Part shown: positions 1,066 to 12,034 of the stretch, piece after piece | Numbering within the stretch: position 1 is the first letter of the stretch | Layout of the letters: the number at the start of each line of letters is the position of its first letter | Translations under genes and position numbers: made by a program | NCBI GenBank assembly: GCA_003565775.1 | Contig: PXAT01000214.1 | Coordinates: 1 to 40,096 of the forward strand | Reading direction: 5' to 3' | DNA length: 40,096 bases | From: Ectothiorhodospiraceae bacterium | GTDB lineage: Bacteria; Pseudomonadota; Gammaproteobacteria; Nitrococcales; Aquisalimonadaceae | The notes under the pieces: model-generated | What the model was told of the DNA's origin: nothing | Seen by the model: the letters and a program-made list of their open reading frames with translations, nothing else | The model's database searches: none

Positions 1066-1650
1066 ATGGCCGGACCCGCCCAGCGTATCCTGGAAACCGT
1101 CGTTGTCAGCCGCAATGCGGACGGCACGCCGCACATTGCACCGCTGGGCGTGCGTCTGGTGGGCGAGGAGATGCTGCTGGCGCCGTTTCATCCGTCGCGT
1201 ACGCTGGAGAATCTGCGGCGCGAGCGGACCGTGACCGTGAACGCGATTACCGATGTGCGCATCATGGCCGGCGCCCTGACCGGTCGCCGGGACTGGCCGG
1301 TGGAGCCGGCGGAGCAGATCAAGGGGTTCCGGTTGGCGGCAGCTCTCAGCCACACCGAGCTGGACCTGCATCGGGTCGAGGACGACGAAATGCGGCCGCA
1401 CTTCTACGGTCGCGTACTCGGATGCTATGCCCATGCGCCGTTCCCGGGCATGAACCGGGCCCAGGCGGCGGTGCTGGAAGCAGCGATCCTGGTCAGTCGC
1501 CTGCACATGCTGGAGCGTGACAAGGTCGAACAGGAACTCCTTTACCTCACCATCGCCATCGACAAGACGGCGGGCGCGGAGGAACTGGAGGCCTGGGGCT
1601 GGTTAATGGAGGCGGTGGACGCATGGCGACAGTCACACGCGAAGGCCTAG
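1066..1650 (+). CDS. DUF447 family protein of the H4MPT C1 cluster
   Basis: 194 residues. The start (ILETVVVSRNADGTPHIAPLGVR) and the later block FPGMNRAQAAVLEAAILVSR are the hallmarks of the DUF447 family, which methanogens and H4MPT-using methylotrophs share. The fold is related to the FMN-binding split barrels of flavin reductase-like proteins, so a flavin-linked step in making or reducing the pterin or furan cofactor is possible, but the function is not established. Its last 28 bases overlap mfnB, so the two are almost certainly cotranscribed and translationally coupled. The ATG at 1066 is the first that fits the family N-terminus; the Shine-Dalgarno (CGAAGG) is modest. Confidence 0.85.
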   Translation: MAGPAQRILETVVVSRNADGTPHIAPLGVRLVGEEMLLAPFHPSRTLENLRRERTVTVNAITDVRIMAGALTGRRDWPVEPAEQIKGFRLAAALSHTELDLHRVEDDEMRPHFYGRVLGCYAHAPFPGMNRAQAAVLEAAILVSRLHMLERDKVEQELLYLTIAIDKTAGAEELEAWGWLMEAVDAWRQSHAKA

Positions 1651-2336
1651 GCCTGCTGGCCAGCGTGCGCGACCTGGACGAGGTCGCACTGGTCCTTGCT
1701 GCCGGCGTCCCACTGATCGACCTCAAGGAGCCGGCTCGGGGCGCACTCGGCGCGGTCGCGCCGGATCTGATCCGGGATGCGGTGACCCTGGTAGCAGGAC
1801 GCGCCCTGGTCAGCGCTACCATTGGTGACACGCCGACCAATACCGATGAATTGCAGAACCGCGTCCGTGCAATCGGCGATTGCGGTGTCGACTTCGTCAA
1901 GGTCGGCCTGCTGGCCGACGCAACACTCCCCTCCGCACTCGCTGCAATGGCGCCGCTGAGCGACCGCTATCGCCTGGTTGCTGTGCTGCTCGCGGACCGC
2001 GCCCGGCCCACGCGGCAAACCCTGCAGGAGATCGCTGACGCCGGTTTCGCCGGCGCCATGCTGGACACCGAGGACAAGGCACGGGGTTCCCTGCCGCAGA
2101 TCATTCCGCCGCAGGAACTGACAGCATTCGTTCGGGCAGCGCGGGAACGTGGCTTGCTGACCGGGCTTGCCGGATCGCTGAGGCTTGCCGACATCCCTTC
2201 TCTGACACCGCTCGGTGTCGACTACCTGGGATTTCGTGGCGGCCTTTGTGACGGCGGTCGGGTGAGCGCCCTCAACGCCGAGAAGGTCCGGAAGGCAATG
2301 GCAGCCCTGGCAGCACCCAGGGCCCGAACCGCCTGA
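1623..2336 (+). CDS. mfnB: (5-formylfuran-3-yl)methyl phosphate synthase, MfnB (Orf5/DUF556)
   Basis: 237 residues. In archaea MfnB condenses two glyceraldehyde-3-phosphates into the furan phosphate precursor of methanofuran; the bacterial homologue (Orf5) should do this for methylofuran. The N-terminus GLLASVRDLDE and the block LIDLKEPARGALGA are diagnostic. Four catalytic residues reported for the Methanocaldococcus enzyme have counterparts with the same spacing: Lys35 and Lys93 (58 apart), Asp148 and Lys152 (4 apart). GGAGG lies 9 bases before the ATG, inside the end of the DUF447 gene. It converges with mfnE, 30 bases away. Confidence 0.93.
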   Translation: MATVTREGLGLLASVRDLDEVALVLAAGVPLIDLKEPARGALGAVAPDLIRDAVTLVAGRALVSATIGDTPTNTDELQNRVRAIGDCGVDFVKVGLLADATLPSALAAMAPLSDRYRLVAVLLADRARPTRQTLQEIADAGFAGAMLDTEDKARGSLPQIIPPQELTAFVRAARERGLLTGLAGSLRLADIPSLTPLGVDYLGFRGGLCDGGRVSALNAEKVRKAMAALAAPRARTA

Positions 2337-2366: not shown

Positions 2367-2942
2367 TCAAAGCGGCGTCTCCGGTTCCGGCAGATGGTCC
2401 GGCCCCAGCACCCGCAAGGCCACCGGGAACCGCTCCAGCAGGTCCGGGAACCGGCCATCGACGATCCCGGTGTCTGCCAATTGCCGAATGCAGGGACTGC
2501 TGCCGCCCGGCAGATCGGCCGACTTCACCAGGATCAGTTCGTCGGCACCGAGGGTTGCTGCCAGCCATAGCGACAGGCTGTCCGAGGTGAAGTCCCAGGT
2601 CTCGTGGATATCCGGATGGCCGTCGGCGAGTTCCGTTGACGGCAACCAGACCGGCACGCGCCCCTGATCGATGAGCTGCGGGATCATCGCCGCTTTGCTG
2701 ACCAGGCCCAGCCGCTCATCCATCGCCGCCAGCATCAGGCCGAACTGATCCATCGCCAGCAGCGCCATGCGGTGCGCCACCGTCTCGTGAAACTCCCAGA
2801 ATTCCTGCGCCTGTCGCACGGCATCGGCGAACAGGCCACCGCCGGGCACGATCACCGCACCGGGTGTGCAACAGGCGGCATTCAACCAGGGCCTTAGCCA
2901 TGGGCCTTGCATCAGGCTTCCGCCCAGCTTAATCACGCGCAT
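2367..2942 (-). CDS. mfnE: MfnE-like kinase of the amino acid kinase superfamily (Orf17)
   Basis: 191 residues. Archaeal MfnE phosphorylates (aminomethyl)furan methyl phosphate to the diphosphate used to build methanofuran. The N-terminal MRVIKLGGSL and VIVPGGGLFADAVR are the phosphate-binding loops of the amino acid kinase fold, and WDFTSDSLSLWLAATLGA is the typical mid-protein block of the COG2054 group that includes MfnE and the methylotroph Orf17. It ends shortly after this domain, the normal length for the group. The start is fixed by GGGAGG 6 bases upstream. It is the last gene of mfnD-mfnF-pabB-mfnE and overlaps pabB by 14 bases. Confidence 0.87.
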   Translation of the reverse strand: MRVIKLGGSLMQGPWLRPWLNAACCTPGAVIVPGGGLFADAVRQAQEFWEFHETVAHRMALLAMDQFGLMLAAMDERLGLVSKAAMIPQLIDQGRVPVWLPSTELADGHPDIHETWDFTSDSLSLWLAATLGADELILVKSADLPGGSSPCIRQLADTGIVDGRFPDLLERFPVALRVLGPDHLPEPETPL

Positions 2943-4329
2943 GGCCGACCTCCCGCAGTGTCAGCAACTGCATCAGATTGTCCGCCCGCTCAGTCGTTTC
3001 AGCGTAACTGTCGGCGGGGGCAGAGTCGCCGGTGATGTTGCCGGCGGCGGAAAACTGCAGCTTGCCGCGGGCATGAACCAGCGTATGCACCGCCACGTTC
3101 AGATCCATGTGACCGTTGCCGCCGAGGTAACCGATGGCACCGCTGCAGATGCCACGTCCGCAGGGTTCGACCTCGTCGATGATCTGTATGGCCTGCTGGC
3201 GTGGCGTGCCGGTCGTGGACGCGCCGGGGAAGCAGACCCGCAGCGCATCCAGCGCGTTGTAGGGCGTGTCCAGTTCGCCGCCGAGACGGTTGATCAGGTG
3301 GTGCACGTGGGCAGAGCTTTCCAGCCGATGCCGCTCCAGCACGCGCACGGTGCCGTCGCGGCAGAACCTGTTCAGATCCTGCTGCATCAGTTCGACCAGG
3401 GCATCGCTGGCTGCCTGTTCGCGCGTGTCGCTGAGCAGACGACGCATCAGATCGGCATCGCTGAGAGCATCCACCGACCGGCTGCGCGCTGCGCCCACGG
3501 GACTCGCCTCGACACGACCCTCATGCACCCGCAGAAACCGCTCGGGTGAATTGCTCAGTACGGTACAGTCCGGCAGCCGCAGGAAGGCGCCGAAGGCGGC
3601 CGGGTTAAGCTTGCGCAGGCGCTTGTAGCCGTTCCACGGGTCACCCGACACCGAGACATCAAAGCGGCGTGACAGGGTGACCTGTCGGCAGTCACCGGCC
3701 TGCAGATAACCCATCATGCGATCGAAGCAGCGTCGATAGGCGGATTCATCGAGATTGGAGTGCAGTCCGGGTGCCACGCGCAGGCGGTGGCGGCGATGGC
3801 GCTTGTCAGCCGGAGGCCGGCTGAACAAGGCGATCAGTTCCGGCCACATGTGCGTGGTTTCGTTGCTCTGGCCCTGACTTGCCAGCCAGGCCTGCTGCTC
3901 CTGGTGGTCAATGACCACGACCCAGTCATAGATCCCGACCGCCATCTCCGGCAGCCCTTCACCGCCGCTGGCCGCGCTGCGACGGCCATCCAGCCGGTGC
4001 GCAAGATCATAGGCGAAGTAACCGAGACAACCACCGGCCAACGGCAGGAAATCGGGTGTCTCGACAGTCTCGCCGAGTTCGCGACCGAGCAGTTCAAGCG
4101 GATCGGCCGAGGACAGCAGCGACTCGCGCTCGCGCCGGATCTCGGTCAATCGACCCCGCGTCATCAGGACAGCCATCGGGTTGGCGGCAATGATGTCGTA
4201 ACGACCATGCCGCCGGCCGGCCGGTCCGCTGTCGAGAAACACCGACCACGGCCAGTGCGCAACGGCCTCGAACAGGCGACTGCCCTCTTCCACGTAGGGC
4301 AGGCTGCCGATGCGGATCGACCTAGCCAT
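2929..4329 (-). CDS. pabB: PabB-like chorismate-binding enzyme (aminodeoxychorismate synthase component I homologue)
   Basis: 466 residues from ATG at 4329 (MARSIRIGSLPY); the frame stays open for 51 more codons upstream but those lie inside mfnF. An N-terminal TrpE/PabB lobe (GGCLGYFAYDLAHRL) is followed by the chorismate-binding domain (SNSPERFLRV, CFPGASTTGTPRQQAIQIIDEVEP, GAIGYLGGNGHMDLNVAVHTL). PabB makes the p-aminobenzoate precursor, which is built into H4MPT as well as folate, so its place among mfn genes is logical. Odd feature: the PIKGTxPR motif, whose Lys (Lys274 in E. coli) is catalytic in PabB, reads PVGAARSR (residues 277-284), and the KDRAEN/RNDLGR region is also divergent. 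It may be a PabB with altered chemistry. No glutaminase partner is in the window. Confidence 0.8.
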   Translation of the reverse strand: MARSIRIGSLPYVEEGSRLFEAVAHWPWSVFLDSGPAGRRHGRYDIIAANPMAVLMTRGRLTEIRRERESLLSSADPLELLGRELGETVETPDFLPLAGGCLGYFAYDLAHRLDGRRSAASGGEGLPEMAVGIYDWVVVIDHQEQQAWLASQGQSNETTHMWPELIALFSRPPADKRHRRHRLRVAPGLHSNLDESAYRRCFDRMMGYLQAGDCRQVTLSRRFDVSVSGDPWNGYKRLRKLNPAAFGAFLRLPDCTVLSNSPERFLRVHEGRVEASPVGAARSRSVDALSDADLMRRLLSDTREQAASDALVELMQQDLNRFCRDGTVRVLERHRLESSAHVHHLINRLGGELDTPYNALDALRVCFPGASTTGTPRQQAIQIIDEVEPCGRGICSGAIGYLGGNGHMDLNVAVHTLVHARGKLQFSAAGNITGDSAPADSYAETTERADNLMQLLTLREVGHARD

Positions 4330-5353
4330 GGGCCCCACCTCGCAGCAGAGCCACGGCAATCGCCGGAGCGAAATTGGCCAGATCCATGTCCGGATCGAGC
4401 GCCCGAATCGCACAGGCCTGTTCGTAGTCCTCGCAGGGTCGACCAACCTGCTGCGCCAGTTGACGCACCAGAAACCGTCCATTGCCGGCGGCGATCAGCC
4501 CCGCGCCGGTGTCGCCATCGGCCTTGCCCAGCGCCCGCGCCAGGGTCCGCAGTTGCTGCCCTCGCAGCTGTCTGGCCAGGGCGCGGGCACCGTCCAGGCC
4601 GGCGTCGGCGAAGTCCAGGCCGACCATGCGCAGCAACCGCCGGGCGCTGCCCTCGGTGGTTGCCGCTCCGCCATCCACCGGCGGCCAGGGGTCGGCATCA
4701 GCCCCGAGATCACCGGTGAGCCGATAAACGTCAGCAGCATTGGCGAACAGTTCGGCGATCAAGGGCACCTGTCGACGGCCCATGCGCACCGAACGGGCCA
4801 TGGCCATCACCGGGGTGCGCAGCACCCCGGCATAGACCAGTTCGCCGCTGACCAGTCGTTCATGGTCGGTAAGCCCCTGATGACAGACTTCGCCCGCGCG
4901 GACCGGAATGAGGTCACTGGTGGTGCTGCCGACATCCACCAGCACGCCGTCGGCGCCGGCCAGAGCGAGCAAACGGGCGCTGCCATGCCAGTTGGCCGAC
5001 GCCACACTGGCGGGATGCTGCCGGGCCTCGGCTGCAGACAGCAGGCCCCGTGGCCCGGCGTAGATCGACAGTGGACCGGGCAGGCGAGCGGTCACGATCT
5101 CGAGAATGCGACAAACACCGGTGGTTCGGTCCGGAAACAGATCCACCAGTTCGCCGGTCAGCGTCACCACATGCCGTGTGCTGGAGGACGCCGAATCAAT
5201 GTGCTGGCACGCCTGACCCAGAGCCTGCTCGAGGCGTTCCAGGCCGCGCCATAGCGGGCAGGGCAACTGCAAGGTGGTCTGTACCACGGCATCGTTCAGC
5301 ACCGAAAGCTTGAGATTGGCACCGCCGATGTCCCAGCCCACCACCGTGCTCAT
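4322..5353 (-). CDS. mfnF: H4MPT-linked C1 pathway protein Orf9, MfnF-like (hydantoinase/oxoprolinase fold)
   Basis: 343 residues. It has an ASKHA-type N-terminus (VVGWDIGGANLKLSV) and a second phosphate loop (GVLVDVGSTTSDLIPV), then VSGELVYAGVLRTPV, the signature of the COG1548 group. Archaeal MfnF, in this group, joins the aminomethylfuran diphosphate to glutamyl-tyramine to complete the methanofuran core. The bacterial enzyme should do the same for methylofuran. GGAGGAG lies ahead of the ATG. Its start overlaps the mfnD stop by 4 bases (ATGA) and its stop overlaps the pabB start by 8, so the operon is tightly coupled. Confidence 0.9.
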   Translation of the reverse strand: MSTVVGWDIGGANLKLSVLNDAVVQTTLQLPCPLWRGLERLEQALGQACQHIDSASSSTRHVVTLTGELVDLFPDRTTGVCRILEIVTARLPGPLSIYAGPRGLLSAAEARQHPASVASANWHGSARLLALAGADGVLVDVGSTTSDLIPVRAGEVCHQGLTDHERLVSGELVYAGVLRTPVMAMARSVRMGRRQVPLIAELFANAADVYRLTGDLGADADPWPPVDGGAATTEGSARRLLRMVGLDFADAGLDGARALARQLRGQQLRTLARALGKADGDTGAGLIAAGNGRFLVRQLAQQVGRPCEDYEQACAIRALDPDMDLANFAPAIAVALLRGGAHG

Positions 5354-6297
5354 GACGCTCCTCCGTCATCGCGCAAGGGGTGCGAATGGCCGGCCAGCAA
5401 GGTCATCAGATGCCGGCCCAGACCGGTGCCGGTGGCCCGACGCAGGTCGGCAAACGATGTGGTCAGACGCGGATTGACCTCGAGCACGGTGAGCAAGCCG
5501 TCATGATCCAGATAATCGATTCCGACGAAACCGTAGAGGCCGGGAATGGCGGCATACAGCACTTGCGCGATCTGTCGGTGCGCATCGGTGATCGGTTCCG
5601 CCGCCACATCGCTGCCGAGATAGCGGAACCCTCGATCGCTGCGCGCGATCTGCTGATGGTTGACGCTCAGCACCTTTACGCCGTCGGCGTCGCAGCGCAG
5701 ACAAAGACTGCAAGCGCGTCCGGGCAGCAACGGCTGCAGCACCTGCCCGGCCGGAATCGCCGATGGATGCGGTGCACGCGACAGCCGACGTATGCCTTCG
5801 CAATCGACGCCGTCATCCGGCTTCAGCAGCCAGTCACCGGCATGGCCAGGCAGCGGATCACCGGCCCGACTGGTCGGCACCACACGGAGACCGGCTCGCT
5901 TCAGCACCGCGGCTGTAGCGGCCTTGCTGGCAGCAATACGTACTGCCTGCGGACGACTGCCGAGCACCGTCGCCCCGGCATTCCTCAGCAGTCGCGTCAG
6001 GGCCTCCAGCGCGTTGCCGGTCTCCGGGGCCACGGGTAATACGGCATCCGCGTCGGCGATGGCTCGACGCCAGAAGCGGGCAATCTCCTCACCCGGTTCC
6101 GGCAGGATGCGGCGGTCGGCCGGGACCTGGTCGGCCAACTCCGGGGTCACCAGTACGACCGGCTCGAGCCCCTGTTCGAGAATGCTATCCTCGACCAGAG
6201 CCAGCACCATCTGGTGCGCCTCCAGGGCCAGCGCCCGGGCCAGTGCCTGATCCCGCAAGCCGCCGGCAAACACGTATTCGAGAATCGCGAGCCGCAT
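5350..6297 (-). CDS. mfnD: ATP-grasp ligase Orf7, MfnD-like
   Basis: 315 residues. ATP-grasp elements are visible: the lysine block SKAATAAVLKRAGLRVVPT, WLLKPDDGVDCEGI, and the metal-binding end GFVGIDYLDHDGLLTVLEVNPRLTTS. The N-terminus MRLAILEYVFAGGL is typical of the COG1821 group, in which archaeal MfnD ligates tyramine to glutamate for methanofuran. In bacterial methylofuran the aromatic part has been reported to be tyrosine rather than tyramine, so the exact substrate here is open. A GGAGGGGG Shine-Dalgarno lies within the start of the divergent HisA-like gene, and the two start codons abut as CATATG. First gene of mfnD-mfnF-pabB-mfnE. Confidence 0.87.
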   Translation of the reverse strand: MRLAILEYVFAGGLRDQALARALALEAHQMVLALVEDSILEQGLEPVVLVTPELADQVPADRRILPEPGEEIARFWRRAIADADAVLPVAPETGNALEALTRLLRNAGATVLGSRPQAVRIAASKAATAAVLKRAGLRVVPTSRAGDPLPGHAGDWLLKPDDGVDCEGIRRLSRAPHPSAIPAGQVLQPLLPGRACSLCLRCDADGVKVLSVNHQQIARSDRGFRYLGSDVAAEPITDAHRQIAQVLYAAIPGLYGFVGIDYLDHDGLLTVLEVNPRLTTSFADLRRATGTGLGRHLMTLLAGHSHPLRDDGGAS

Positions 6298-6996
6298 ATG
6301 TCAGCCCCCCTCCAAGTCATTCCGGCGGTGGACCTGATGGACGGTCGCGTGGTGCGCGCCCGCGGGGGCCGGCGATCGGACTATCAGGCACTGGATTGCG
6401 CGCTTGTCGCCGACAGTCGACCGCACGCGGTACTGGACGCGCTGCTGGCGTTTCACTCCTTTGACACGCTGTATATTGCCGACCTGGACGCGATCGACGG
6501 CCGCGGCGATCAGCTGGCGCTGGTGCGCGAACTGGCAGAGCACTGGCCCGGCGTCATCTGGCTGGATGCCGGCGCGCTGACACCGCCGGGCGGCGTGCGA
6601 CCGGTATTCGGTAGCGAGGCCTTTGTCGACAACGAAACCTTGCAGGCCGCGCTGGCGATGGCCGAGCAACCAATCCTTTCGCTGGACCGCCGCGACCGGG
6701 GGCTGATCGGCCCGGCCGGGCTGGAACACGAACCGTCGCTGTGGCCACAGGATCTGATCCTGATGGAGCTGGACCGAGTCGGTAGCGGTCGCGGCCCGGA
6801 ACTCGAACGTCTGGCGGCCCTGCGCGCCCGGGCGCCTGGCTATCGCTTTCATCTGGCCGGTGGAGTGCATGGCCTGGCCGATCTGGAGGCCGCACGAACG
6901 GCGGGGGCCGCCGGCGTGCTGCTGGCCTCGGTGCTGTGGGACCGAACGCTGGACCCGGACCGCCTGACAGCGATCTGCATGCAGCACGCTGACTGA
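6298..6996 (+). CDS. HisA/HisF-like TIM-barrel protein of the H4MPT cluster
   Basis: 232 residues from ATG at 6298. It resembles the HisA-type (beta/alpha)8 barrel: the opening LQVIPAVDLMDGRVVRARGG, the phosphate-binding LAGGVHGLADLEAARTAGAAGVLLASVLWD, and the central TLYIADLDAIDG. It belongs with the COG1411-type HisA relatives common in methanogens and methylotrophs, not with true histidine biosynthesis: no other his genes are near. The substrate is not known; a phosphosugar or ribosyl intermediate of H4MPT is plausible. The frame is open for 28 codons further upstream, but those lie inside mfnD and do not match the family. The Shine-Dalgarno is weak. Convergent with the CitG-like gene. Confidence 0.78.
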   Translation: MSAPLQVIPAVDLMDGRVVRARGGRRSDYQALDCALVADSRPHAVLDALLAFHSFDTLYIADLDAIDGRGDQLALVRELAEHWPGVIWLDAGALTPPGGVRPVFGSEAFVDNETLQAALAMAEQPILSLDRRDRGLIGPAGLEHEPSLWPQDLILMELDRVGSGRGPELERLAALRARAPGYRFHLAGGVHGLADLEAARTAGAAGVLLASVLWDRTLDPDRLTAICMQHAD

Positions 6997-7010
6997 CGGC
7001 CGGGTCCGCC

Positions 7011-7922
7011 TCATGACCGCGCCCTGCCCGAGACGGCCGAGGGGCTGTAGCGCCGCCGCACCCCGGGATCCGGTTCCAGCAGCGCAGCGCAAAGGGTTGC
7101 CACGGTCAGATCGGCACAGGTGCCGGGATTGATGCCCTCGGCATGCAACTGTCTGTCGAACACCAGCAAGCGCTCGCGGAACGCCGTGGGATCTTCGCTT
7201 GCCGCGACCGCATCGGCCAGTGGCGCCGCCTGCTCCATGACGCGGCGAGCCAGCGGCGCGCCCTGCCGACGCAGTGTATGGCTGTCCGGCCCTTCGGCCA
7301 GAAAGCGCAGATACAATGCGGTAGTGGCCCAGGTCAGCGACTGCCATCGCCGCCAGTCACGCAGCAAGGCTCGTCGCTTGGCACCGAGCAGATCGCGAAA
7401 GCCATCCAAGTACTGGGCTGCAACCCGGTCGCGATGAGCCGCCTCGGTCATCGCCGCCAGCAGAGGTGCCTCCGCCGGTTGATTCACATCGTGTCGTGGC
7501 GCATCGCCCAGGCCGCCTGGCGCCGCGACCCGGATCGCCTGGAACAGATCCTCGGTATCGCGCAGATCATCCGTGCCGAGCAACCCGGCAACCACCGGCT
7601 GGAGATCCTGCTCCCCGGTCCGCGTCTGCGCCGCCATCAGCAGCGGTGCACACAGCAGCAGAATGCCGAGATTGGTATTGCAGCCGACCGCCTCGCGGGT
7701 GGCACGCGCGGCCTCCAGAATGCGCGCACCGAGGCGGGCCTCCACGCGGCATAGCGCCGGGGCCGAACGCCGGGCACTGAGCAGGAAATCCCGGCCGCTC
7801 ATACCGTGGCCTGGACGGCTGGCAGCCACGTTACCGGGCTTCAGTGCACGCAGATCCATGCAGCAGGCCCAGCGGAAAGCCCGTTCCGGCGGCAGCGCCA
7901 GCGTGACCGGTTGCGCCATCAT
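7011..7922 (-). CDS. CitG/MdcB-like triphosphoribosyl-dephospho-CoA synthase family protein
   Basis: 303 residues. CitG-type enzymes transfer a ribosyl triphosphate from ATP to dephospho-CoA by an alpha-glycosidic bond. The conserved blocks are LRALKPGNVAASRPGHGMSGRDF and, near residue 80, VGCNTNLGILLLCAPL (usually TNTHLG). No citrate or malonate lyase genes, the usual CitG customers, are present. Homologues of this type recur in methylotroph H4MPT clusters, so a ribosyl or phosphoribosyl transfer in H4MPT side-chain synthesis is a reasonable inference, not shown. It overlaps the RimK-like gene by 4 bases (ATGA) and is the last gene of the mptG operon. Confidence 0.82.
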   Translation of the reverse strand: MMAQPVTLALPPERAFRWACCMDLRALKPGNVAASRPGHGMSGRDFLLSARRSAPALCRVEARLGARILEAARATREAVGCNTNLGILLLCAPLLMAAQTRTGEQDLQPVVAGLLGTDDLRDTEDLFQAIRVAAPGGLGDAPRHDVNQPAEAPLLAAMTEAAHRDRVAAQYLDGFRDLLGAKRRALLRDWRRWQSLTWATTALYLRFLAEGPDSHTLRRQGAPLARRVMEQAAPLADAVAASEDPTAFRERLLVFDRQLHAEGINPGTCADLTVATLCAALLEPDPGVRRRYSPSAVSGRARS

Positions 7923-8830
7923 GAGACCACCTCCAGCGCCGGATGCTGCAGGTACCGGCGCAGCAGGTCGTCGGCCAGATGCTGGGCGATATCCATGTCC
8001 ACCACGGTTTGCAGGCCGCGCCAGGCGGGCACCGAATTGACCTCCAGCACGTGAATCCGGCCATCGGCGTCGCGGATCAGGTCGACGCCGCCGTAATCCA
8101 TGTCGAGCACGGCGACGGCCCGTTCGGCCGGTTCCGCCAGCTCCGGGGCCAGGGGTACCGAACGTACCTCGCCGCCACGGGCGACATTGCTGATCCAGTC
8201 GAGACCGATGCGCTGCATCGCGGCCACGGCTCGGCCGCCGACTACCAGCACCCGCCAGTCACGACCGCGCGCGTGGCCGGTATCGACGAACCGCTGCAGG
8301 TAGTAGACCCCGTCGCAGTCGGTCGCCGAGGGCAGTTCGCCGGGGCGATCCAGACGCTGCACGCCTTCGCCCTGGGCCCCGAACAGCGGCTTGACCACCA
8401 CCCGGTGGCCGGCGGCGAATTCGAGGTGCAGGATCGATTCGGCCTCGTCACGGTTTCCGCAGACCCAGGTCGGTGGGGTGCGGATGCCGTCCCGGGCCAG
8501 CAACGCACTGGTCAGGGCCTTGTCGACGCTGCGCTCGATGGCACGACCGTCGTTGTACACCGGCACGCCCAGGGCCTGCAGGATGTGCAGGATATTCAGA
8601 TGAAACACGACCTGCTGCAGACTGCCTCCCGGAATGCCGCGAACGAACACGGCGTCCGGCAGGCGCCCGCCGAAGCCCGGCAGACGCACGCCGCCGGGGA
8701 GGCTGGTATCGATGACGCAGTCCTGCAGTTGCAACCACGGAGCATCACAGCCACGCCGCCGGAAGGCGTCGCGCAGGCGCGCGCCATGCCAGCCGGGCGT
8801 GTCGGTGACGATGGCGACCGTGATGCCCAT
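7919..8830 (-). CDS. RimK-type ATP-grasp glutamate ligase-like protein
   Basis: 303 residues. It has the RimK plan: N-terminal Rossmann-like lobe (VAIVTDTPGWHGARL), central VYNDGRAIERSVDKALTSALLARDGIRTPPTWV, ATP-binding VVVKPLFGAQGEGVQ, YYLQRFV, and metal-binding GVDLIRDADGRIHVLEVNSVPAWRG. The closest functional relatives are archaeal MptN and CofF, which add alpha- or gamma-glutamates to pterin and F420 cofactors. Bacterial methylofuran carries a polyglutamate chain, so glutamate addition to methylofuran is a good guess. It sits 4 bases after the mch start side of the operon and overlaps the CitG-like gene. Confidence 0.85.
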   Translation of the reverse strand: MGITVAIVTDTPGWHGARLRDAFRRRGCDAPWLQLQDCVIDTSLPGGVRLPGFGGRLPDAVFVRGIPGGSLQQVVFHLNILHILQALGVPVYNDGRAIERSVDKALTSALLARDGIRTPPTWVCGNRDEAESILHLEFAAGHRVVVKPLFGAQGEGVQRLDRPGELPSATDCDGVYYLQRFVDTGHARGRDWRVLVVGGRAVAAMQRIGLDWISNVARGGEVRSVPLAPELAEPAERAVAVLDMDYGGVDLIRDADGRIHVLEVNSVPAWRGLQTVVDMDIAQHLADDLLRRYLQHPALEVVS

Positions 8831-8834
8831 GGCG

Positions 8835-9815
8835 CTAGTTGTCCAGCGCCCGGGTCAGGGCGTCCTCGTCGACGCGGCCGGCGGCGAAGCGCTTGCCGCT
8901 GGGCAGGGCATTGACGATGATTCGGGCCGGGCTGAACAGGTTCGGATCCATCTTGTAGAAATCGAAATCGAACTTCTTCAGCAACTCGGCGAACGGCGTT
9001 CCGTAGTCCTTGGAGACCTGGCTCGGCATTTCCAGCGCGAGCTTTTCCGCCTCGGCATCATCGGCGTCCACCTGCAGCACCACGGTGCCGCCGAAGATGA
9101 TGGCGTCATTGCTGCGGCCCATGGCCTTGAGGAAATCGCCGCCGGCGGGCGGCAATGGTGCCCAGCCGAGACCGTCCACGACCCGATCCAGGTCGAAGCC
9201 CAGGGTGTGCACCTTGTGCAGGGCGACTTCCAGCACGCGGCCGACGACCTGGGTGATGCCGGCCATGCTCTGGGTCGGGGTCAGGATAATGGTCAGCTGG
9301 TCAGCGCTGGCCAGGCCGCAATCGGCAACAATCTTTTCCAGCAGTTCGTCCGGCGGCACCTGATCGACTTCCAGAACCAGGCTCGTGCGACCACTACGAT
9401 CGCGATAGGCCAGTTCCTCGAACAGAGGCTCCTTCTGCGCCAGGGCGCGCGCCGGGCCGGAACCCAGGGCCATGAACTTGGTTTCCCTGTGCGACAGGCT
9501 CCAGCCGGCGTATTGACTGGCCAGGCAGGCGAGCACCGGGTTGACGCTGTGGACGCTGATCGCCACCGGCCATTCGGCGATGCCCGAGCCGCCATGGATG
9601 CTGACCCGGCCCTGGCCACCCATGCAGATTTCGGTGATCAGGCGGCCCGCCTCCATGCTGCCGCGATGCTTGATCCCGGCATCGATGATGGTGACACCGC
9701 TGCTGCTGCGGCTGACGCCCAGGCGCAGGCCGTCGGCATTGTCCACCAACTGCCTGACGATCCGGTCGGCGCCGTCGCTGATACTCGGTGCGTTGGCTAG
9801 GCTTTTCAGTGACAC
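8835..9815 (-). CDS. mch: Methenyl-H4MPT cyclohydrolase
   Basis: 326 residues from GTG at 9815, with GAGGGGG 9 bases upstream. The frame runs 140 codons further back, but that is antisense-type sequence inside the ATP-grasp gene. Mch hydrolyses methenyl-H4MPT to 5-formyl-H4MPT in the cytoplasm, between MtdB and the Fhc complex. Conserved blocks include GVTIIDAGIKHRGSMEAG, GSGIAEWPVAISVHSVNPVLACLASQYAGW, ALGSGPARALA and FGGTVVLQVDADD. The length is normal for the family. It lies third in the mptG operon, 34 bases after the ATP-grasp gene. Confidence 0.96.
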   Translation of the reverse strand: MSLKSLANAPSISDGADRIVRQLVDNADGLRLGVSRSSSGVTIIDAGIKHRGSMEAGRLITEICMGGQGRVSIHGGSGIAEWPVAISVHSVNPVLACLASQYAGWSLSHRETKFMALGSGPARALAQKEPLFEELAYRDRSGRTSLVLEVDQVPPDELLEKIVADCGLASADQLTIILTPTQSMAGITQVVGRVLEVALHKVHTLGFDLDRVVDGLGWAPLPPAGGDFLKAMGRSNDAIIFGGTVVLQVDADDAEAEKLALEMPSQVSKDYGTPFAELLKKFDFDFYKMDPNLFSPARIIVNALPSGKRFAAGRVDEDALTRALDN

Positions 9816-9849
9816 GTGGTAAATCCCCCTCGAAAGAAAATCAAAGTGT

Positions 9850-11040
9850 TCAGATCGTTGCGACGGCCTCACTGCCGAGCCAGCGTCGCCAGAGTGGTCG
9901 GCGATCCCCGCGCAGGCCCTCCAGCACGCGCTGCTGACGATCGGCAAGTTCCGCATACCGGGACTCGATATCGCCGCCGTCGGCATGCACCGTGCAAACC
10001 GGCGCTCCTGCCATGATTCGCGTTCCTGCCGCGGGTCTGTCCGTGGCCCAGGATGGCCATTGCAGTCCCCGCGGGACACGCAGTTCGTGGTCCGCGTAAA
10101 GGATCTGATAGGCGCGCCGAACCGGGTCCGGCGCCGTGGCCGGCAACTCGCCGGCACTGGCCCGCAGGTGCCAGTGGAACAGGCCGCCGGGAAGCGCGGC
10201 ATCATACAGATCCAGACTGGCGCATGGACGCGCATTCAACTCCAGTAGCCAGAGCACCTGGCCGTCGTAGACACAATCGACGCCGTTCAGACCCCGCAGT
10301 CCCGCCGCCGCGGTCAGGCGCTGCACCAGACTCTCAAGCAGCCCGGTCAGTCCTGCCGGCAGGTCGGGTCGGCTGGCCGCGCCGCCGTGCAGAAAACTTC
10401 CCGCTTCGCTGTTATCCGGTCGGCACCACTGCTGGTGCACGCCCAGCACGCACGCGCGCTCACCGTTCGCCAGAAACTGGGCCGACAGGGACAGTCCGCG
10501 GACCCGGCGCTGATACACCTCGTCCGGCCCGGCCGTGGTGCTGCTGGCCGTCTGGATGCCGCTGCCACCGCTGCCGGCCAGCGGCTTGATCAGCCAGGCC
10601 TCGCTATCCGCCGGCCGTGCCGTGCGGGTCTCGGGAAAGCGCACCGGACTGCCCGCAAGCCAGCGCCGCAATTGCTCCGGTGACTGCGCCGCGGCAAACA
10701 CCGACGGGGCGTTACCGAACACCGGCAACAACTCGGTCAGGGCCTGCAATGCCGACACCTGGGTCTCCAGCCCGCTGCCGTACACCAGGCCGGCCAGTGG
10801 CCGGCGCGCACCGAGGTTTCTTACCCGTCGCACCAGTTCGACGCCGTTGACCCTGAGGCCATGCAGAGGCAGCGGCTCGAAAGCACCGGCAGACTGCCTG
10901 GTGTCGACATCGCCGAACGCGTCCATCGCGATGACTGCATGACCAGCGGCCTTCGCCGACTGCACCAGCCCCCGAACACTCGTGCCCACGACCAGATACG
11001 GCTGGCCGGCAGGGTCCTGTCTGTCCGCGCTCTGTGGCAT
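9850..11040 (-). CDS. ATP-grasp domain protein of the H4MPT cluster (COG2232-like)
   Basis: 396 residues from ATG at 11040, which follows the mptG stop by 4 bases; TGAGG just before it may serve as ribosome site. The N-terminal lobe (LVVGTSVRGLVQSAKAAGHAVIAMD) is a Rossmann-like preATP-grasp domain. ATP-grasp features follow: WLIKPLAGSGGSGI, SLSAQFLANG, and GLNGVDCVYDGQVLWLLELNARPCASLDLYD. Members of this group occur in H4MPT gene clusters of methanogens and methylotrophs; the reaction is unknown, but an ATP-dependent amide or peptide-like ligation in methylofuran or H4MPT side-chain assembly fits. The ~100 codons open upstream of this start lie antisense to mptG sense and are not part of the gene. 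Confidence 0.8.
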   Translation of the reverse strand: MPQSADRQDPAGQPYLVVGTSVRGLVQSAKAAGHAVIAMDAFGDVDTRQSAGAFEPLPLHGLRVNGVELVRRVRNLGARRPLAGLVYGSGLETQVSALQALTELLPVFGNAPSVFAAAQSPEQLRRWLAGSPVRFPETRTARPADSEAWLIKPLAGSGGSGIQTASSTTAGPDEVYQRRVRGLSLSAQFLANGERACVLGVHQQWCRPDNSEAGSFLHGGAASRPDLPAGLTGLLESLVQRLTAAAGLRGLNGVDCVYDGQVLWLLELNARPCASLDLYDAALPGGLFHWHLRASAGELPATAPDPVRRAYQILYADHELRVPRGLQWPSWATDRPAAGTRIMAGAPVCTVHADGGDIESRYAELADRQQRVLEGLRGDRRPLWRRWLGSEAVATI

Positions 11041-11044
11041 TGCC

Positions 11045-12034
11045 TCAGGTCGACGCCAGGCGCCGGGCCTGATGCTCCAGCACCTCTGCGCCGGTGTTCC
11101 GGCCCTGACAGATTCGAAAGTCCAGCGCCGGCTGGGCCTGTTGCAGCGTGGCCCGGTAACGCTCGGCGGCGGCCTGATCGGGCAGCACGACGAAGCCGGT
11201 AGGCCCCCAGGAACTCTGCCCGGCCGGCAGACCCGCGGCAGCGGCCTGTTCCAGCAGTTCAGCCACCAACGGACTGGTGAAGCGCGCACCCTGCGCCGGT
11301 GCAAAGTGATCACCGACCCGGGTCTGCAGCGCCCAGATGGCTTCGGCGAACCCCGCCAGATCGGCCTCATGGATGGCCGGTAGCAACTGCATCAGGGCAA
11401 TCCGGCAAAGCTCGGCGGCACTGGCCGCCGGGAAACGGGGAAGATCCCGAAACGCCTGCAACTCTGCATTGCCGTGCAGGCCGTGTTCGCCGGTGTCGAG
11501 CAGCAACAGCACGCGCCAGGCCGACGGAAACGGCAGCCGTGACAGCAGCGGCGGCGGCCGGTCGGTCGCGCCGCGACCACCGTCCAGCAGAAAACCGCCA
11601 TGATCAAAGGCCCCGACACCGATTCCGGATCGCGCACCGCGATCCAGCTCGTGGGCTATGCGGGGTGTCTCCCAGCTCAGGCCGTAGAGGCGGCTGGCCG
11701 CGGCACCGATCGCAAGCGCCAGCTGGGTACCGGAGCCCAGGCCGACATGTTCGGGAATCGCCGTTTCCAGATGCAGGCGGATGCCGCCGGGGCGACCGAG
11801 CTGGGCCAGCATCCTGTCGGCGACACGCGCGGTGCGCTCAGGGGCATCACCGGACACTTCAACACTGTCGGCGCGCTCGGCATGCAGCCGTGTGCAAACC
11901 GGGTCCAGCGCCAGCCCGACACTGCCGAAGCGCCGGCCGAGTTCGCCGTTGAGGTCGAGAAACCCCATGTGCAGGCGGCCCGGCGCGGAGACCTGAACAC
12001 TGGCCGGCCAGCGATTTGAAGGAAACATGGTCAT
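11045..12034 (-). CDS. mptG: Beta-ribofuranosylaminobenzene 5'-phosphate synthase, MptG
   Basis: 329 residues, GHMP-kinase-like fold. MptG condenses PRPP with p-aminobenzoate (or hydroxybenzoate), the first step specific to methanopterin. The opening VSAPGRLHMGFLDLNGELGRRFGSVGLAL, the glycine-rich loop IPEHVGLGSGTQLALAIGAA and the end SSWGPTGFVVLP are characteristic. First gene of a five-gene minus-strand operon. Two in-frame start codons (12034, 12028) exist; a sigma-54 promoter at 12046-12061 would place the transcript start about one base before the first, so the message may be nearly leaderless. The family usually begins near VQVSAPGRLH, so either start is acceptable. Confidence 0.93.
   Translation of the reverse strand: MTMFPSNRWPASVQVSAPGRLHMGFLDLNGELGRRFGSVGLALDPVCTRLHAERADSVEVSGDAPERTARVADRMLAQLGRPGGIRLHLETAIPEHVGLGSGTQLALAIGAAASRLYGLSWETPRIAHELDRGARSGIGVGAFDHGGFLLDGGRGATDRPPPLLSRLPFPSAWRVLLLLDTGEHGLHGNAELQAFRDLPRFPAASAAELCRIALMQLLPAIHEADLAGFAEAIWALQTRVGDHFAPAQGARFTSPLVAELLEQAAAAGLPAGQSSWGPTGFVVLPDQAAAERYRATLQQAQPALDFRICQGRNTGAEVLEHQARRLAST

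Follow-up and report, generated by a model that had tools for sequence, protein, structure and literature searches.

The window analysed here, i.e. the whole stretch of 40,096 nucleotides (contig PXAT01000214.1 of an Ectothiorhodospiraceae bacterium), carries a CitG-like gene close to mch and mptG (Table 1). The CitG-like ORF (7011-7922, reverse strand) is intact, starts with ATG and encodes a protein of 303 amino acids. This protein matches PF01874 (CitG) with an E-value of 8e-57 (193 bits for a curated cut-off of 27), and its residues 14-279 align with positions 2-283 of the 284 positions of the model, which makes it a member of the superfamily. No NCBIfam family was matched at E ≤ 0.01, and 3h9p is one solved relative detected by sequence. 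The start of the ORF lies inside the end of the preceding RimK/MptN-like gene, with a 4-bp overlap (ATGA), and a GGAGG motif is located upstream. The sequence-only reading had placed a CitG-like gene here, co-operonic with mptG and mch and without any citrate or malonate lyase, and these observations bear it out. The genes are on the same strand, the operon being deduced from strand and spacing, and the genome (G000, 96.8% complete) has a single CitG match and no match to PF06857, the carrier protein of citrate lyase and malonate decarboxylase, by which both lyases were judged. The 9850-11370 ORF overlaps mptG, and its true start is probably internal. The pabB-like gene would supply p-aminobenzoate, the substrate of MptG. 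The window also contains MfnE-, MfnF- and MfnD-like genes, plus Fhc genes in divergent orientation.

Table 1. Features of the window around the CitG-like gene
Feature	Coordinates	Strand	Evidence and remarks
CitG-like protein (orf7 by gene order)	7011..7922	-	PF01874, 193 bits; clade, residues, profile; proposed alpha-ribosyl transferase of H4MPT side-chain synthesis
RimK/MptN-like ATP-grasp ligase (orf5; MyfB in Methylorubrum)	7919..8830	-	Overlaps the CitG ORF by 4 bp; Methylorubrum function from PMC8141765
mch, methenyl-H4MPT cyclohydrolase	8835..9803 (start approximate)	-	PF02289, 381 bits
ATP-grasp protein (MyfA-like by position only)	9850..11370	-	PF02655, 57 bits
mptG, beta-ribofuranosylaminobenzene 5'-phosphate synthase	11045..12034	-	TIGR00144, 168 bits, cut-off 113.5
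orf17-like HisA/HisF-related protein	6214..6996	+	Convergent with CitG; the Methylorubrum orf17 serves methylofuran synthesis (PMC8141765)
DUF447 protein	1066..1650	+	PF04289/PF20766
MfnB-like (5-formylfuran-3-yl)methyl phosphate synthase	1623..2336	+	PF04476, 200 bits; methylofuran marker
pabB-like, aminodeoxychorismate synthase component I	2929..4482	-	PF00425/PF04715

In Candidatus Thiodictyon syntrophicum, the genes are arranged in the order mch-RimK-CitG-fae-HisA-like. This equals the order mch-orf5-orf7-fae-fae-orf17 given for Methylosinus trichosporium in the accessible part of PMC3615186, and we therefore take the CitG-like gene as the orf7 of the methylotroph H4MPT clusters. In that part of the paper, orf7 is labelled as an H4MPT-linked C1 transfer pathway protein and is given no function. 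In two related clusters (L161 and L163), mtdB follows mptG and fae separates citG from the HisA-like gene, whereas neither gene is found at those places in the window (6997-12034). In three annotated plasmid clusters, mptG and mch precede CitG on its strand. Genes of this kind are annotated in PLSDB as triphosphoribosyl-dephospho-CoA synthase.

The neighbourhood of CitG was counted by tblastn with the proteins of the window in 80 related loci, 59 of which include 5 kb upstream of the gene. Either mch or mptG was found upstream on the same strand in 44 of these 59 loci, showing a conserved clustering with H4MPT genes, and orf5 was present in this position in 54. Among the 15 loci with neither mch nor mptG upstream, 12 still have orf5. 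Three of the 15 (L033, L056 and L074), together with L046, for which a shorter upstream part was available, belong to genomes that encode Mch elsewhere. A search for Mch in six genomes with a CitG away from mch found it elsewhere in four of them and not in the other two, both Thiodictyon. In Azospirillum ramasamyi, one of the three annotated plasmid clusters, the order is mptG-mtdB-mch-citG, with no orf5 between mch and citG. However, the available sections of PMC8141765 show that Methylorubrum uses orf5 (MyfB) and orf17 to make methylofuran, and that methenyl-dH4MPT is still detected in an orf17 mutant. Because the nearest neighbours of CitG are thus methylofuran genes in that organism, we rejected operon position alone as proof of a role in H4MPT synthesis. 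The context argument of the sequence-only reading keeps the conserved position of the gene in its favour, but is weakened by the identity of these neighbours.

The two Thiodictyon genomes without an Mch match are uncultured MAGs of unstated completeness, in which the search was genome-wide. They contain an mptG-citG pair followed by pabB (L032:8660-12694 and L043), and none of the other 13 cluster proteins gave a match within these loci of ∼20 kb each. Possibly, a methanopterin-type side chain is made there without the usual C1 enzymes.

The distribution of CitG was established in a sample of 299 genomes of Pseudomonadota. A total of 40 CitG copies occur in 33 of them, and the carrier protein PF06857 is present in 24 genomes (26 copies). 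For each of the 26 carrier genes, a CitG gene is located no more than about 3.2 kb away. The remaining 14 CitG copies are found, one each, in 14 genomes that have MptG and Mch. The search for Mch covered the 36 genomes in which CitG, MptG or the carrier protein had been detected, and Mch was found in 14. In every one of the 299 genomes sampled, the number of CitG copies equals the number of carrier-protein copies, plus one where Mch was found. Five genomes that possess both systems (G028, G143, G151, G249 and G271) have two CitGs, one beside each gene set. The phyletic profile proposed earlier as a check thus gives a clear outcome: CitGs that are not beside carrier genes track MptG and Mch, and all 14 genomes of the phylum sample with MptG and Mch have a CitG. 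These 14 genomes represent seven families and nine genera and so are not independent; the Fisher value of 2.6e-24 ignores this kinship and treats the 263 genomes outside the Mch search as lacking the gene.

MptG (TIGR00144) exceeds the cut-off in 16 of the 299 genomes, and one weak match lies below it (G027, 25 bits). Two of the 16 genomes, G015 and G174, are mismatches, having MptG over the cut-off and no CitG. Mch, DUF447 and MfnB were all searched for and not found in these two genomes, and their MptG-like genes lie in another gene context; TIGR00144 alone was therefore rejected as a marker of H4MPT synthesis. Both genomes belong to the class of the window's organism, and the genes (L145:6871-7947 and L146:6864-8045, both on the reverse strand) are flanked alike, by an ORF in which an ATP-binding-loop motif was recognized by eye and by a similar membrane-protein-like ORF. 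They are part of a common cassette apart from the H4MPT genes, perhaps concerned with defence or nucleotide metabolism.

A second sample consisted of 230 genomes of the class of G028, a different class of Pseudomonadota (presumably Alphaproteobacteria); among the genomes with hits, G004, G028 and G163 were already in the first sample. It contains 11 CitG copies in nine genomes. Four of these go with four carrier proteins (three genomes), and the other seven are in genomes with Mch. MptG is over the cut-off in six genomes, G415 has a partial match (65 bits), and four other TIGR00144 matches (20-27 bits) come from genomes without CitG. Two mismatches were noted. G350 has CitG and Mch but no MptG, and its contig ends ∼95 bases beyond mch, while G438, which is 79% complete, has MptG but no CitG, and its contig ends inside mch.

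Among 14 named control genomes, CitG matches were obtained in Escherichia coli, M. jannaschii, H. volcanii, S. acidocaldarius and M. acetivorans, and a carrier-protein match in E. coli only. All four archaeal CitG controls have MptG and DUF447. Mch was detected in three of the four, with no match in Sulfolobus, and MfnB was detected among the controls in the two methanogens only. No match to MfnB was obtained in Haloferax and Sulfolobus, although CitG, MptG and DUF447 are present, so that CitG is not confined to organisms with MfnB, as would be expected of a methylofuran enzyme. In the 21 genomes and 14 controls searched for both proteins, DUF447 is present in 14/14 H4MPT genomes, in 0/7 others tested and in the four archaeal controls, and MfnB in 14/14 H4MPT genomes and 0/7 others tested. 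Apart from the carrier-protein systems, MptG and DUF447 accompany CitG, even where Mch or MfnB was not found. On a Natrinema plasmid (L162:7893-9337), the CitG homologue and DUF447 share a 4-bp overlap. DUF447 is therefore a likely partner of MptG and CitG. It has solved relatives (3b5m, 2iml and 2ptf) and presumably a flavin-binding fold; a role in ring opening is our guess.

For sequence comparison, 127 distinct CitG stretches gave 98 H4MPT-linked rows of at least 240 amino acids, the remainder being carrier-linked or shorter. The 98 rows were thinned to 31 (<65% mutual identity), to which the window protein was added, and the 26 carrier-linked rows to 25. The identity of the window protein to H4MPT-linked CitGs is about 43% on average, a mean that includes the window's own sequence (L001), and 36% at the lowest, whereas it is 23% on average and 26% at the highest for the 26 carrier-linked CitGs. 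In an unrooted tree of 59 rows, the 25 carrier-linked rows form one side of a branch with support of 100/100, and the 32 H4MPT-linked rows are grouped with 97/99. Two archaeal rows, 3h9p of Archaeoglobus fulgidus and the Natrinema homologue, form a third group (97/89), in which the 3h9p branch is long. With profiles of the two bacterial groups, Natrinema scored 103 bits for the H4MPT-linked profile and 39 bits for the carrier-linked one, and 3h9p scored 72 and 11 bits, respectively.

Eighteen positions are conserved at ≥90% in both the H4MPT-linked and the carrier-linked groups: K28, P29, V32, G38, S49, G65, G80, N82, T83, G86, A97, G137, D213, G221, P266, G267, A270 and D271. Two further columns flagged as common (285 and 286) are gap columns and were left out. 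Of the 18 positions, Natrinema retains the residue at 15 (all but G38, S49 and G137), and the 3h9p fragment, which covers 14 of them, at 10. The window protein differs from carrier-linked CitGs, in which the corresponding residues are L, H, L, S, G and L, by N31, N84, P93, N265, T268 and T273, and its residues around 147-166 have no counterpart in these proteins. The archaeal homologues share P93, L154, M158, N265, T268 and T273 with the H4MPT-linked CitGs, although they form their own tree group and the Natrinema gene, unlike the CitG gene of the window, overlaps DUF447. At 17 discriminating positions, gaps included, both archaeal rows agree with the H4MPT-linked group at nine and with the carrier-linked group at three (3h9p) or four (Natrinema); when residues only are counted, the difference is weak (5 versus 3 of 9 for 3h9p, and 5 versus 4 of 11 for Natrinema).

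An AlphaFold model of the window protein, obtained with 19 aligned sequences, has a mean pLDDT of 88. It superimposes on 3h9p with a Z score of 23.4 and a deviation of 2.5 Å over 219 residues, with 25% identity over the structural alignment, and 3h9p was the only Foldseek match at E ≤ 0.001 (E 2.5e-6). The core residues and the fold of the superfamily are thus both present. In a second structure comparison, ARH3 ADP-ribosylserine hydrolases account for 13 of the 50 matches listed and align over most of the model, but with Z scores of 2.6-3.3, which are not significant; this likeness lies in an uninformative range and was set aside as a clue to the donor.

The CitG/MdcB enzymes, ATP:dephospho-CoA triphosphoribosyl transferases, build an alpha link from ATP and release adenine, and methanopterin contains an alpha-ribosyl bond for which ribitol is the acceptor. 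To our knowledge, ribosyl transfer is the only step of the H4MPT pathway that resembles this chemistry, and it is on this ground that we propose it for the protein. According to the comparative genomics, the CitG-like protein very probably works in H4MPT biosynthesis. That its step is the alpha-ribosyl transfer is likely, and for ATP as the ribosyl donor the chances appear about equal either way. As a whole, we propose, with a probability of roughly 0.68, that these proteins constitute an H4MPT-dedicated branch of CitG, which would transfer ribosyl phosphate from ATP (or PRPP) to the ribitol side chain of H4MPT with formation of an alpha bond. From the ribosyl transferase suggested by the sequence-only reading, the link to the pathway is thus upheld by profile, gene position and clade, while the step and the use of ATP rest on family chemistry and on the conserved residues. 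Points that speak against this reading are the CitG of Haloferax, the missing Mch match in Sulfolobus, the neighbours that serve methylofuran synthesis in Methylorubrum, the PRPP donor reported from White's work, the phosphatase that the bacterial product would need, and the 15 of 59 loci with neither mch nor mptG upstream.

In the route that we envisage, MptG would begin the 1-(4-aminophenyl)-1-deoxyribitol side chain, and the CitG-like enzyme would then transfer a unit of ribosyl phosphate to the terminal hydroxyl of this side chain. The group transferred would most likely be the 5-triphosphoribosyl of ATP, with adenine being released. If the beta-N-glycosidic bond is attacked with inversion, as it is in CitG, the alpha-ribosyl bond of methanopterin would result. 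Methylorubrum and similar bacteria would next remove the phosphates, a reaction that would need a phosphatase; the dH4MPT of Methylorubrum extorquens is described as having neither phosphate nor hydroxyglutarate (PMC8141765, accessible part). In archaea, the 5-phosphate would serve as the bridge to 2-hydroxyglutarate, and the triphosphate might be a ready precursor of this phosphodiester, as in CitX chemistry. In the malonate decarboxylase system, the carrier bears 2'-(5''-phosphoribosyl)-3'-dephospho-CoA, which is added by MdcB and MdcG (PMC5534430, in the portion consulted).

The profile ties CitG to MptG but does not name the step, which leaves room for a role in another step of side-chain synthesis, for instance on the product of MptG prior to attachment of the pterin, or for PRPP as the donor. 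PRPP is reportedly the ribosyl donor in White's work, and the differences between the two groups at N31, N84, N265 and T268 would allow a changed donor or acceptor. On the other hand, conservation of 18 positions across both groups suggests that the transfer chemistry has been kept, and no other step known to us in the pathway is like it. As regards the donor, inversion of a beta-N-glycoside gives an alpha product, whereas alpha-PRPP would require retention; this favours ATP, though it is no proof. We consider this other step or donor unlikely.

The gene neighbours would instead fit an enzyme of methylofuran synthesis. CitG overlaps orf5, converges with orf17 and is accompanied by orf5 in more loci than by mch or mptG, and MfnB occurs in all 14 H4MPT genomes tested and in none of seven others. 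This is nevertheless highly improbable, since Haloferax and Sulfolobus have CitG with no MfnB match, Azospirillum ramasamyi has citG directly after mch, and the two Thiodictyon loci keep mptG and citG with pabB while the other cluster proteins are unmatched. In addition, the accessible part of PMC8141765 does not mention a ribosyl unit in methylofuran. The Pfam name, the family core and the PLSDB annotation would all suggest an ordinary CitG/MdcB enzyme whose product, triphosphoribosyl-dephospho-CoA, serves a carrier protein or another use, but this can hardly be upheld: the genome has no PF06857 match, the window protein stands apart from carrier-linked CitGs in both identity and tree, and the five genomes with two systems have one CitG per system. 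Our preferred reading therefore remains the H4MPT-dedicated transferase.

A broader view, which we advance tentatively and regard as rather doubtful, is that MptG, DUF447 and CitG form the core set for a methanopterin-type side chain in both Bacteria and Archaea. MptG would make the C-riboside, the DUF447 protein would reductively open the ring to deoxyribitol, and the CitG homologue would attach the alpha-ribosyl unit of ATP in triphosphate form. In archaea, a CitX-like reaction would then use this triphosphate to make the phosphodiester to 2-hydroxyglutarate, releasing pyrophosphate. If so, Haloferax and Sulfolobus, which keep all three genes, would make such a side chain. Haloferax is described as using tetrahydrofolate, and in the available text of PMC8305020 methanopterin-specific enzymes are considered absent from haloarchaea and the MptG homologue is doubted. 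In contrast to this view, H. volcanii gave matches to MptG, CitG, DUF447 and Mch in our searches. The product of the CitG pathway in Haloferax may be different.

Our literature search found no gene assigned to the ribosyl transfer of H4MPT synthesis, nor the term triphosphoribosyl together with methanopterin; subscription papers were mostly outside its scope, and an earlier prediction is possible. Tetrahydromethanopterin is the carbon carrier in methanogenesis, in anaerobic methane oxidation and in much of methylotrophy, and one gene family is now tied to its pathway. These results suggest that the name triphosphoribosyl-dephospho-CoA synthase is a mis-annotation in H4MPT organisms, and they reopen the question of whether haloarchaea synthesize a methanopterin-type side chain.
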